Shown here: positions 2,005-22,928 of the stretch, in pieces
Layout: every line of letters starts with the position of its first letter
Position numbering within the stretch: position 1 is the stretch's first letter
DNA from: a virus
IMG/VR virus record: IMGVR_UViG_3300025073_000041
Location: 1-64,000 of that record
Strand: one strand, 5' to 3'
DNA length: 64,000 nt
The notes under the pieces: generated by a model
Seen by the model: only the letters and a program-made list of their open reading frames with translations
Told to the model about the DNA's origin: nothing
Databases searched by the model: none
Program-made: the position numbers and the translations under genes

Positions 2005-2162
2005 TCCTATTGCCCTGGTAACGGCCACGGCTTCTACCCGTGTGTACCGTAATTGGAATAATGCAGGTTCGAGCCCTGCCCAGGGCGTTATTATAAATAG
2101 TGGAGTCGAACTCGCTTTTGTATAAAAAATACAAGTCGGGAGTTCAAGCCTCTCCGGGCGCG
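2005..2162 (+). ncRNA. tRNA-like structured stretch beside element A
   Basis: Contains GCCCTGG (2012-2018) perfectly complementary to CCAGGGC (2080-2086), a T-arm-like stem-loop GCAGG-TTCGAGC-CCTGC before it, a 5-bp stem CACGG-CTTCTAC-CCGTG that could present anticodon UCU, and a second T-arm-like stem at 2138-2154 followed by CGGGCGC. The pieces do not assemble into a canonical cloverleaf. I read this as remnants of one or two tRNA genes or another folded RNA. An RNA covariance-model search would decide. Confidence 0.35.
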
Positions 2163-11449: not shown

Positions 11450-11721
11450 GTCTCCCCCGCGTGTGCGGGGATGGACCTGGCAAAAGCGTGGTCGAAGGCT
11501 AAAAAAAGATGTCTCCCCCGCGTGTGCGGGGATGGACCAGCCCCGGTGCCAACATTTTTCCCCCGTCCTACGTCTCCCCCGCGTGTGCGGGGATGGACCT
11601 TCTGCCAAGAGCACAGAAAAAAGATCCTGAAAGTCTCCCCCGCGTGTGCGGGGATGGACCTTCTTCTAATGTGCAGCCTAATAGCGTCAACGTGTCTCCC
11701 CTGCGTGTGTGGGGATGGACC
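11450..11721 (+). CRISPR. CRISPR array, 5 repeats and 4 spacers
   Basis: 28-base repeats at 11450, 11511, 11572, 11633 and 11694, with four 33-base spacers, so a 61-base unit as in type I-E arrays. The core CCCCGCGTGTGCGGGG is a hairpin and the repeat ends in GGATGGACC, like I-E repeats. The first four repeats are identical. The last has two C-to-T changes that turn C-G pairs into wobble pairs and keep the stem; this marks the distal end and a leader at the left. No cas1, cas2 or Cascade gene is in the window. I noticed no spacer match inside the window. Confidence 0.95.
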
Positions 11722-18072: not shown

Positions 18073-18144
18073 ACAAGACAATAAAACACAGAATAGATAA
18101 TAGATAAAAATAATCAGATAAGCACTCATTAGGATAGGGGGTAC

Positions 18145-18170
18145 AGTATACAGCGTATACTACATATAAT
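18145..18170 (+). promoter_or_regulatory. Operator-like dyad next to a TATAAT box
   Basis: AGTATAC-AGC-GTATACT is a perfect inverted repeat (18145-18161), directly followed by ACA and TATAAT (18165-18170). The position over a promoter spacer suggests a repressor or activator site. No good -35 box is seen. Confidence 0.45.
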
Positions 18171-18310
18171 ATCTTTTTAAATTTGGAAGAAGGCTGAGGA
18201 AAAGAAGAGAAGAATAAAAGAAAACCTAAAGGATAAACGTGGGGGGGAGAAGGGAGCGGAGGTAGCGGGACGAATTAGCACCACGATACTGCCCAAAATT
18301 TGGCACCCCC

Positions 18311-18327
18311 TGTGACAAAATGTCACA
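18311..18327. promoter_or_regulatory. Operator-like dyad
   Basis: TGTGACA-AAA-TGTCACA, perfect 7-base arms, 20 bases upstream of the -35 box at 18348. The half-site TGTGA is like CRP-family sites, but no claim about the protein can be made. Confidence 0.45.
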
Positions 18328-18347
18328 CCATTCTCACCTTATTTTAC

Positions 18348-18376
18348 TTGACAACTCCTTTTGGTTATGATATAGG
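18348..18376 (+). promoter_or_regulatory. Promoter
   Basis: TTGACA, 17-base spacer, TATAGG. No gene follows for nearly 600 bases, so the product is probably RNA. Confidence 0.6.
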
Positions 18377-18471
18377 GCCGATCCTTTAAAGTTGGCGAGT
18401 ATATCACAAATAAATAGTAAGGTCAAGTGGTAATTTCTCGAAAAAGGTGAGAAAGGGATAAAAAATAATAC

Positions 18472-18500
18472 TTGACATAGGATAAAAGTTAATGTACACT
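18472..18500 (+). promoter_or_regulatory. Promoter
   Basis: TTGACA, 17-base spacer, TACACT. Downstream, ATATAG...CTATAT and GATCT...AGATC hairpins followed by TTTTT near 18585 may define a short RNA of about 80 bases. Confidence 0.5.
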
Positions 18501-18659
18501 AGGTTGGTGGAGGGATATAGTAAAACTGCTATATTGCAAAAACAAAGGGGTTTTATTCGATCTGTCCCTATTCAGAGATCATTTTTGTTGACTTGGGAAG
18601 ATCCCATAGAGAAGTATAATAGTGGAGTATAGAATATTGGCAAGACAACAAAAAATAAG

Positions 18660-18689
18660 TTGACTTCTTGGGAAGAATCGTGGTATAAA
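18660..18689 (+). promoter_or_regulatory. Promoter of the tRNA transcript
   Basis: TTGACT, 18-base spacer, TATAAA. The spacer GGAAGAATCGTGG is also found in the promoter at 19378, so the two share more than the -35 and -10 boxes. Confidence 0.75.
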
Positions 18690-18695
18690 GGCAGA

Positions 18696-18790
18696 CATGG
18701 AACTGAGGTAAATGCGGAAAAAGAAGACAGACTATCTTCTTGCTAAAACCTCAGAACCTGCTTTAAGAGAACTAGTCATTCTTTTAAAGC
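18696..18790 (+). ncRNA. Structured 5' leader of the tRNA transcript
   Basis: CTGAGGT (18703-18709) pairs with ACCTCAG (18748-18754), enclosing AAGAAGA...TCTTCTT. A second hairpin CTTTAAGAGAA...TTCTTTTAAAG (18761-18789) ends directly at the tRNA 5' end. It could be a small RNA released by tRNA processing or a processing signal. Confidence 0.5.
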
Positions 18791-18864
18791 TTCCCGGTAG
18801 CTCAGCGGTCTAGAGCGGCCCCTTTAAGGGGGGCAGGTCCCAGGTTCGAATCCTGGCCGGGGAA
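18791..18864 (+). tRNA. tRNA, best-paired anticodon UAA (Leu?), unusual
   Basis: 74 bases. Acceptor TTCCCGG pairs with CCGGGGA (one G-U), D arm GCTC...GAGC, anticodon stem GCCCC...GGGGC with loop TTTAAGG (anticodon 18825-18827 UAA), 5-base variable loop, T arm CCAGG-TTCGAAT-CCTGG, discriminator A. No CCA is encoded. Leu tRNAs normally have a long variable arm and A at position 37; this has neither. Shifting the loop by one base gives C-U-UUA-A-G, an ochre-suppressor anticodon with standard loop bases, but costs two stem pairs. Identity is therefore uncertain. Confidence 0.85.
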
Positions 18865-18928
18865 TTGTGGAGACTGGGATAAAAATCCCTTGGGATAAAG
18901 AAGGTGAAAGCCCTTTCCTAGACCACAA
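18865..18928 (+). ncRNA. Three-way-junction-like RNA after the tRNA
   Basis: TTGTGG (18865-18870) begins right after the tRNA discriminator and pairs with CCACAA (18923-18928). Inside are GGGAT...ATCCC and a second stem. It lies 32 bases before the gene at 18961, so it could be its leader or riboswitch-like control. No known class recognised. Confidence 0.4.
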
Positions 18929-18960
18929 ACGTTTTAATTTTGTTTGTCTTGGAGGAATAG

Positions 18961-19368
18961 ATGCGCAAGTACACACGTCCAGTTTATAATGGCTGTTCTC
19001 TCCAGGATTTAAAGGGTCTTGTTTTTGACAAGGTATATAAACGAGAGGAGAATCCGGCTCCGGAGTTTTCTAACGAAGCAATTGTCTTTGAGAATAAAGA
19101 TGAAAAGTTTATTCTAACCCATTGGCAAGATTGTTGCGAATCTGTGGTAATTGAAGAAATTCATGGGGATTTGGAGGATTTGGCTGGTGCTTCTATTGTC
19201 CAGGCAGAAGAGGAATATAAAAACGGGTCACAGAACGGCGGCGATCTTACGGAAACCTGGAGTTTTTATAAGTTTGCGACAATCAAGGGGTACGTTACCA
19301 TTCGCTTTTATGGAACTTCAAACGGATATTATAGTGAAAGTGCAGGTTTGTTCAAGTTGGTGAGGTGA
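18961..19368 (+). CDS. Hypothetical protein in the RNA island
   Basis: 135 residues behind GGAGGAATAG. Acidic, beta-rich, with D-C-C-E near residue 58. No domain recognised. It is the only convincing gene between 18.07 and 20.48 kb. Confidence 0.7.
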   Translation: MRKYTRPVYNGCSLQDLKGLVFDKVYKREENPAPEFSNEAIVFENKDEKFILTHWQDCCESVVIEEIHGDLEDLAGASIVQAEEEYKNGSQNGGDLTETWSFYKFATIKGYVTIRFYGTSNGYYSESAGLFKLVR

Positions 19369-19377
19369 TTATTTTTG

Positions 19378-19407
19378 TTGACTTGTTTGGAAGAATCGTG
19401 GTATAAG
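19378..19407 (+). promoter_or_regulatory. Promoter of the 19.4-kb RNA
   Basis: TTGACT, 18-base spacer ending GGAAGAATCGTGG, TATAAG. Near-identical to the promoter at 18660. Confidence 0.75.
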
Positions 19408-19413
19408 GAAATA

Positions 19414-19645
19414 TATTAACCCCTGGAGGTGTTAGGCACATAGAGAAGAACCACAGGAAACTACGCCTGGAGAAAACAACTGCCTTGATACATCGGGCAC
19501 CTCCTTTCTATGTTGTTGTTTTCTCATGGGGATTCTCAGTTCTCCGTTCGATTCGGAGCCGGGGAATAGGGGGTAAGTCCTCGGGGAAATGCTGGCCTCT
19601 CAAAAAGGCAGATGCACCACGAGTTTACTGCCCCCGACTTTTTTA
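19414..19645 (+). ncRNA. Orphan structured ncRNA, about 230 nt
   Basis: Runs from a strong promoter to a terminator-like end (CCCCCGAC then TTTTTT near 19645). GGAGGTG pairs with CACCTCC about 70 bases later. CTCCG-TTCGATT-CGGAG followed by CCGGGGAAT is a T arm plus an acceptor strand identical to that of the tRNA at 18791; CCCTGG near the RNA 5' end could pair with it. GGGGG...CCCCC and GCCT...AGGC stems follow. The tRNA-like element suggested tmRNA, but I do not find a convincing tag frame. Confidence 0.55.
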
Positions 19646-19921
19646 TTTGTTTGTCTTGCGAGATATATAAAAAGGATCATAAAGGAGGGTCCTAAGCTTG
19701 ATGGACAATTAAATTATTTGATAATGTACTAAAAAAGATTTCAAGTAAGGATTATTATTAACTCATTATTTCGGAAGGGACGGCCTATATGGCTGTCCTC
19801 TTCCCATTTGTCTGCCAATATATAAAAATAATTATACACACATATATATATACATATACCCACATCCAAGCGCGCATATATAATATAGTCAGAATTCGGC
19901 CAAGACAGAAAAAAATATATC

Positions 19922-19950
19922 TTGACTCTTGCCAAGATCTCAGGTATAGT
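19922..19950 (+). promoter_or_regulatory. Promoter of the 20-kb RNA
   Basis: TTGACT, 17-base spacer, TATAGT. Confidence 0.7.
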
Positions 19951-19956
19951 CCTCTT

Positions 19957-20273
19957 AACACTTATTAGCAAGCTACGGCACGAGGAGGATAAGTAAAAAG
20001 AATGGAACCTTGGTAGAAAGCTTAAAGATTTCTTGGGGATTAGATCGTAAGGCATGAGGCTTACTTGTTAGGTTCTGGGGATTGTTTGGGTTGGATCTCG
20101 GCGGGAACGCGGCTCCACGGGGGTGCGTTAAGACGCTATCTCCCTGAGCGACAGCCCCCGCCGAATGGGCGAAAGACGCTGGCTTCCCCAGCCGGCCTCG
20201 GACGCCAAGTGCCGCCGCCCTCTTGTCGTCTGGCCTGACAGCCTAAGGACGACAATGGCGGCGGTTTCTTTTT
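19957..20273 (+). ncRNA. Orphan GC-rich structured ncRNA, about 317 nt
   Basis: From the promoter at 19922 to a strong terminator at 20211-20273. The stretch 20095-20265 is far more GC-rich than its surroundings and has many complementary blocks (for example GGCGGG...CCCGCC). A GGAGGATAAG site near 19985 precedes a 4-codon frame (M-E-P-W) that could be a leader peptide. Possible frames on the GC-rich part lack ribosome sites. RNA class unknown. Confidence 0.55.
20211..20273 (+). terminator. Strong intrinsic terminator
   Basis: GCCGCCGCC pairs with GGCGGCGG(T), with an inner GTCGTC...GACGAC stem, followed by TTTCTTTTTC. Confidence 0.75.
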
Positions 20274-20299
20274 CTTCTCTTGGGATAACGGCTAATGGA

Positions 20300-20336
20300 T
20301 TATCATGTATGGTACAAAATGTACCATACATGATAA
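20300..20336. repeat. Perfect 17-bp inverted repeat with AAA loop
   Basis: TTATCATGTATGGTACA, AAA, then the exact reverse complement. No T-tract follows on either strand, so a simple terminator is unlikely; a protein-binding site, a cruciform or a remnant insertion target is possible. Confidence 0.85.
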
Positions 20337-20421
20337 CATATGGTCACTTATCTTGGACGGTCAAACAAAAGCACCCATATATTAGTAGTCAGAAAAAAAG
20401 ACAGGCAAACAAAAAAAGAGA

Positions 20422-20450
20422 TTGACGCTTCAATTTAAACTTGTTAAGAT
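20422..20450 (+). promoter_or_regulatory. Promoter cut off from its gene by the HNH gene
   Basis: TTGACG, 17-base spacer, TAAGAT. The surrounding 75 bases resemble 22830-22905 (same spacer CTTCAATTTA and same downstream CCAAAGAATCGAAC), but here the 3' end of a convergent HNH gene follows at once. Confidence 0.55.
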
Positions 20451-20486
20451 GTCCAAAGAATCGAACGAACCACCAGAGGAGAAAGC

Positions 20487-22793: not shown

Positions 22794-22852
22794 ATATGGT
22801 CACGTATTGCATAGCATCGAATAAATCGGCAAGGCAAACAAAAAAAAAGAGA

Positions 22853-22881
22853 TTGACACTTCAATTTAGATTTGATAGACT
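22853..22881 (+). promoter_or_regulatory. Promoter
   Basis: TTGACA, 17-base spacer CTTCAATTTAGATTTGA, TAGACT. It is part of a repeated regulatory cassette (compare 20422 and 23399). Confidence 0.7.
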
Positions 22882-22928
22882 GCCCAAAGAATCGAACAGA
22901 CAAGGCAAGAAAAAGAAAAGAGGACGCC

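Follow-up and report, generated by a model that had tools for sequence, protein, structure and literature searches.

RNA A, a non-coding RNA of ~230 nt predicted within a 2.2-kb island of a phage genome, is, judged by sequence comparison, a diverged tandem paralogue of the tRNA unit that precedes it, with the central part replaced or lost. We lean towards the view that the island is a small locus for stable RNAs in a T4-type phage, formed in part by tandem duplication, in which RNA A would serve as a tRNA-mimic decoy or regulator and a second transcript, RNA B, would be separate. The parts of this explanation that are backed by the sequence are the collinear duplication, the retained end elements, the compensatory changes in the T stem and the absence of a coding signal.

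The window, by which we mean the whole stretch of 64,000 nucleotides that was analysed, is part of an 85.7 kb phage record in IMG/VR, and the terminase and major head protein identify a T4-type phage. A larger contig, IMGVR_UViG_3300025117_000031 (153,920 bp), matches the window record at 100% across the island. The two assemblies diverge at window 27.7 kb, where a promoter-rich repeat is found in opposite orientations (at ~153.8 kb in the larger contig), and since the copies of this repeat are inverted at the split point, one of the two assemblies is probably flipped there. The island itself (18100-20336, ~2.2 kb) holds one convincing gene, an excess of sigma70-like promoters, one tRNA and two non-coding stretches, with the following features:

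18659-18688, plus strand: promoter of the tRNA unit (TTGACT...TATAA), sharing 93% identity with the RNA A promoter over 30 bp
18697-18790, plus strand: folded tRNA leader with two hairpins, from folding
18791-18864, plus strand: tRNA gene with a UAA anticodon and a class I body, lacking the long variable arm that Leu tRNAs have
18865-18951, plus strand: tRNA trailer, a branched stem and then a U-rich tail TTTTAATTTTGTTTGTCTTG, from folding and repeat comparison
18961-19368, plus strand: DUF7448 protein gene (PHROG 2650, unknown function), AGGA upstream, between the two paralogous RNA units
19377-19406, plus strand: RNA A promoter, paralogue of the tRNA promoter by repeat comparison
19413-19641, plus strand: predicted RNA A transcript, ~230 nt, a putative tRNA-mimic RNA delimited by promoter and terminator
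19421-19426, plus strand: candidate acceptor 5' strand for RNA A that could form 6 pairs with 19559-19564 (probability ~0.31), not significant by itself
19542-19558, plus strand: T arm of RNA A, 3/5 stem pairs differing from those of the tRNA by paired (compensatory) changes
19559-19566, plus strand: acceptor 3' strand and discriminator of RNA A, CCGGGGAA, identical to tRNA 18857-18864
19570-19658, plus strand: long branched terminator stem of RNA A, U-run and tail TTTTTTATTTGTTTGTCTTG, the tail common to the tRNA unit
19683-19805, plus strand: ribosome-binding-like AGGAGG with no known role, followed by a start codon, a 3-codon ORF (ATGGACAATTAA) and, at 19773-19804, a strong hairpin, likewise of no known role
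19922-19950, plus strand: RNA B promoter (TTGACT-17-TATAGT), distantly similar to the tRNA promoter
19957-20268, plus strand: RNA B, with an AT-rich 5' part, a GC-rich structured 3' part and a double-stem terminator, no homologue found
20300-20336, unstranded: perfect inverted repeat with 17-bp arms and a 3-nt loop, from the repeat search

The original prediction had described an RNA island with tRNA-related transcripts, one convincing gene and at least five sigma70-like promoters, and our analysis supports this description for transcripts that are predicted from the sequence. DUF7448 is the sole gene with family support (Pfam E 1.5e-20) and phage-like codon use (+0.30 bits/codon), the other ORFs of the island that were tested giving -0.33 to +0.09 bits/codon, and 20 promoter-like sites were observed between 17900 and 20500 against 5.7 +/- 2.2 in shuffles. 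The single tRNA was found to have the folded leader and trailer ascribed to it (z -3.07). The two long RNAs that had been said to end at terminators, RNA A and RNA B, each have a promoter and are predicted to end in long branched stems followed by U-runs; a scan for short-stem terminators found neither end (1 site, 2.3 expected) because these stems are long and branched. Also as claimed, one of the RNAs shares its acceptor strand with the tRNA: RNA A holds a full consensus T arm (CTCCG-TTCGATT-CGGAG) followed by CCGGGGAA as in the tRNA, and such consensus T arms number 9 in 154 kb against a shuffle average of ~0.5. The reading of the island as several independent orphan RNAs does not fit best, RNA A being a tandem paralogue of the tRNA unit by the comparison that follows.

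A repeat search within the island revealed three collinear blocks shared by the tRNA unit (18659-18951) and RNA A, namely the promoter (30 nt, 93%, chance expectation 0.00, copies 718 bp apart), the T arm with the acceptor strand (27 nt, 78%, 702 bp apart) and the terminator tail (20 nt, 85%, 707 bp apart). When scored against 1000 dinucleotide shuffles, the alignment of the whole tRNA unit with RNA A was equalled by 0/1000, the T arm and acceptor block also by 0/1000 and the terminator tail by 2/1000. The middle stretch between promoter and T arm is unrelated in the two units (550/1000 shuffles as good), and a search for a common 5' half between them found none. Since the collinear blocks beat the shuffles with the middle at the level of chance, we infer that RNA A arose as a tandem copy of the tRNA unit.

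Such a copy could be a functionless, decaying pseudogene in which the T arm is a relic, a reading that we think rather unlikely. It would account for the middle of the unit retaining no similarity, for a fold of RNA A that is only moderately better than shuffles (z -2.1) and for the finding of no RNA A homologue elsewhere. The T stem, however, reads CCAGG/CCTGG in the tRNA and CTCCG/CGGAG in RNA A, so that three of the five pairs have changed on both sides with pairing kept (C-G vs U-A, A-U vs C-G and G-C vs C-G). These compensatory changes, along with an intact T-loop signature (GTTCRANYC), are unexpected under neutral decay that erased the rest, as are the identical 8-nt acceptor strand and the well-kept promoter and terminator tail. 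The T-stem changes, the T-loop signature and the acceptor strand thus argue against simple decay, and the pattern suggests that RNA A is a maintained tRNA mimic, with the T stem as a small sample (one paralogue pair) that provides the sole covariation evidence for RNA A. A model of RNA A aligns to the adjacent tRNA (E 0.019) and to a phage tRNA-Ile (E 0.003), skipping the central insert, and these alignments are not independent evidence as they rest largely on the T arm and acceptor.

Outside the contigs of this same phage, the best terminase identity in IMG/VR is ~50%, so that there are no close relatives for covariation. IMG/VR was searched for relatives of the island with patterns from the protein, the promoter, RNA A and RNA B, the DNA patterns returning only the identical contig, and DNA searches of phages and plasmids with RNA A and RNA B gave no matches or chance matches only. 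RNA A is therefore known as a single sequence and selection on it is judged from one paralogue pair, because the second copy found is 100% identical; all conclusions on the island rest on one phage.

In the predicted ensemble the T stem of RNA A forms with a probability of ~0.42, and the acceptor strand can form 6/7 pairs with an upstream strand (probability ~0.31), a match that 22% of this genome's random 20-mers achieve likewise. The transcription, processing and function ascribed to RNA A are predictions. An intron-containing tRNA was rejected as an explanation, as its central insert would be ~85 nt, too small for a group I intron as inferred from known sizes.

In its cloverleaf, whose acceptor, D and T arms fit the consensus (58.8 bits vs the Rfam tRNA cut-off of 29), the tRNA of the first unit resembles other phage-carried tRNA genes. 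It differs from them in that the UAA anticodon sits on an Asn-like body, the anticodon loop can close, CCA is not encoded, and the gene has a promoter of its own and a long folded leader. The most similar phage tRNA is a tRNA-Asn (80%). Leu tRNA requires a long variable arm, and the class II arm that was looked for as the mark of a functional tRNA-Leu(UAA) is absent from this 74-nt tRNA, which has a 5-nt variable loop (AGGUC). In the anticodon arm (GCCCC-UUUAAGG-GGGGC), extension of the stem can leave a UAA triloop, with pairing probabilities of 0.86-0.89 for six pairs and 0.47 for the seventh. Given the Asn-like body, the UAA anticodon, the 5-nt variable loop and the closable loop, the tRNA may decode poorly or may itself be a mimic. 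In a set of genes from this phage, TTA codons have a frequency of 13.8 per thousand. Elsewhere in the window (2012-2087) lies a tRNA-like sequence that was not called by ARAGORN, with a perfect 7-bp acceptor, a T arm, a possible TCT anticodon arm and no D arm; it and another orphan T arm at 2138 are both beside a TnpB gene.

It had further been claimed that none of these RNAs fits a known class. A covariance-model search with the known RNA families bears this out in that Rfam returned no family except tRNA in the island at the gathering score, the sub-threshold hits being implausible. The claim should be qualified in that a closest kind can be named, the tRNA-like stable RNAs beside phage tRNA genes, such as T4 rnaC. 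This RNA is made beside the tRNA genes, was detected by Northern blot and counts as a late RNA whose function is unknown (PMC9697503). Like RNA A, rnaC (species 1 RNA; Tequatrovirus and relatives) is a non-coding RNA by the tRNA genes of T4-type phages, itself stable and ~140 nt long, and both RNAs have, near the 3' end, a T arm with an acceptor-like 3' strand directly after it. We built a covariance model from 8 phage rnaC sequences, T4 rnaC and homologues (L042 1409-1547 and L055-L061), whose alignment was folded without guidance. The fold contains a closing stem that resembles an acceptor, a long arm, an arm of ten pairs and a T arm; compensatory change is seen at 23/46 pairs, and the covariation score was reached by 0/500 shuffles. 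The closing stem has two U-U mismatches, both of which are replaced by pairs in the aligned rnaC of a more distant Yersinia phage. Enterobacter phage SonariX has an rnaC homologue whose 3' part is annotated as tRNA-Met.

Searched up to E 10, neither the window nor the 154-kb contig contained a match to the rnaC model; the likeness of RNA A to rnaC thus lies in anatomy, with homology not supported. The two share no sequence match and differ in the size and order of their arms, and rnaC adjoins the tRNA cluster in the same orientation whereas RNA A has its own promoter and terminator. A closing stem between the 5' and 3' ends is a defining feature of rnaC, and its possible counterpart in RNA A is the 6/7-pair helix of probability 0.31 that chance frequently matches. 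A likeness exists to tmRNA, in which the ends are also tRNA-like and the anticodon domain is replaced by something longer. However, neither ARAGORN nor Rfam matched tmRNA in the island, no tag reading frame was recognised in RNA A, and its 5' acceptor pairing is weak and lacks the G3-U70 pair.

The same phage carries a Ro60/Y RNA locus elsewhere. A Ro60 gene (TROVE and vWA_Ro60) lies on the minus strand of the larger contig at ~49.1-51.3 kb (L014 9110-11300) and is preceded by a YrlA-like RNA, a likely member of the YrlA family, with a permuted T arm, an acceptor hairpin and a D arm; it scores 30.8 bits (E 0.0034), short of the gathering score of 69. Since the YrlA model also gives low-scoring hits in control genomes and at adjacent tRNAs, this match counts mainly for its position and structure. 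The gene is also preceded by a GGGCCGUAG hairpin and followed by a third such motif, and from three stems at the locus we derived the Ro60-binding stem motif GGGYCGUAG. The locus further contains another T-arm RNA, a UCA-anticodon tRNA gene and an RlaP (RNA repair) gene. The RNA repair operon of Salmonella contains genes for Ro60, Y RNAs and RtcBA, and the YrlA there has a tRNA-like domain (PMC7790460).

With Ro60, an adjoining YrlA-like RNA and three GGGYCGUAG stems encoded by the same phage, RNA A could be read as a YrlA-type Y RNA of the phage Ro60 particle, its T arm and a following acceptor hairpin (CCGGGGA...UCCUCGG) forming a permuted tRNA-like module. RNA A and YrlA (RF02553) both mimic tRNA by a T arm and acceptor, and the RNA A acceptor strand has a 7-pair downstream partner visible in the sequence. 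The island, however, has no GGGYCGUAG within one mismatch on its plus strand and no RF02553 match up to E 5, and the pairing of the acceptor with the downstream strand has a probability of 0.0, that strand being used by the terminator stem; we therefore consider a Y RNA to be quite improbable. A T-box-like leader switch, in which the acceptor strand pairs with the terminator strand and folding of the T arm prevents termination, is more improbable still, for although the UCCUCGG pairings are mutually exclusive and an AGGAGG with a 3-codon ORF lies downstream, there is no T-box or other Rfam match and no real plus-strand gene before RNA B, and the alternative pairing has a probability of 0.0. 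The AGGAGG and ORF occupy 19683-19711, and the ORF stops well before the strong hairpin.

RNA B looks like an independent structured transcript. Its GC content is 42% in the first 130 nt and 67% thereafter, its fold is moderately better than shuffles (z -2.3) and its similarity to the tRNA unit and RNA A is no greater than chance. Its status as an orphan holds: Rfam gave no match, and searches of phages, plasmids and IMG/VR yielded no relative at the sensitivity applied; one exact 20-mer match was seen in a Nocardia genome. The strongest local folding signals in the island come from the terminator of RNA B and from the perfect palindrome between RNA B and the next promoter (20300-20336). A promoter region is repeated at window 20403-20466 and 22832-22897 (85% over 66 bp), the first copy pointing into the back of an opposite-strand HNH endonuclease gene that looks as if it had been inserted downstream of it. 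A promoter class exclusive to the island RNAs was ruled out, the closest relative of the tRNA promoter outside the island (13517) driving a protein gene. A general association of DUF7448 with tRNA genes was also rejected, as no general rule emerged across annotated neighbourhoods: DUF7448 lies within the tRNA arrays of L010 and of a T5-like phage, and in the remaining annotated neighbourhoods a tRNA was found only in Sinorhizobium phage phiN3, 1.6 kb away. The window also has a CRISPR-like mini-array (11450-11721) of five 28-nt repeats (GTCTCCCCCGCGTGTGCGGGGATGGACC) and four 33-nt spacers, beside which no cas gene was noticed and whose spacers have no other match in their own contig.

For the stable-RNA locus that we favour, we propose the duplication of an ancestral unit that comprised promoter, leader, tRNA, trailer and terminator and whose two copies now lie on either side of the DUF7448 gene. 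The first copy would still encode a tRNA-shaped RNA. In the second, the stretch from promoter to T arm would have been replaced or have diverged beyond recognition, with the promoter, T arm, acceptor 3' strand and terminator tail kept. The T arm and acceptor end of RNA A would be docked by tRNA-handling enzymes, and if these are the parts under selection, its partners should be enzymes that read this half of a tRNA; candidates are T-loop modifying enzymes, RNase P, end-processing nucleases and possibly the CCA-adding enzyme or EF-Tu. Having no normal anticodon domain, RNA A would be unable to decode, and its most likely role during infection would be that of a stable decoy for tRNA-binding proteins or a regulator directed at them. 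The adjacent tRNA, whose UAA anticodon loop can close, may act likewise, and RNA B would be a separate structured transcript.

A bolder proposal, which we regard as doubtful, is that the phage turned a duplicated tRNA unit into a dedicated tRNA-mimic RNA, with the T arm, acceptor strand, promoter and terminator as the sole parts kept by selection, and uses this RNA and the anticodon-disabled tRNA as decoys against host proteins that target tRNA. If this were true, the decoys, with Ro60 and the YrlA-like RNAs elsewhere in the genome, would form a phage tool-kit of tRNA mimics. The locus would represent an intermediate caught between a tRNA gene and a non-coding tRNA-like RNA, with the duplication still visible by its spacing, and the parts kept in RNA A would indicate which features matter. 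Alongside rnaC, RNA A may provide a second example of a similar architecture with an apparently independent origin. Together with the covariation-supported tRNA-like fold of rnaC, RNA A would make the decoy idea testable.
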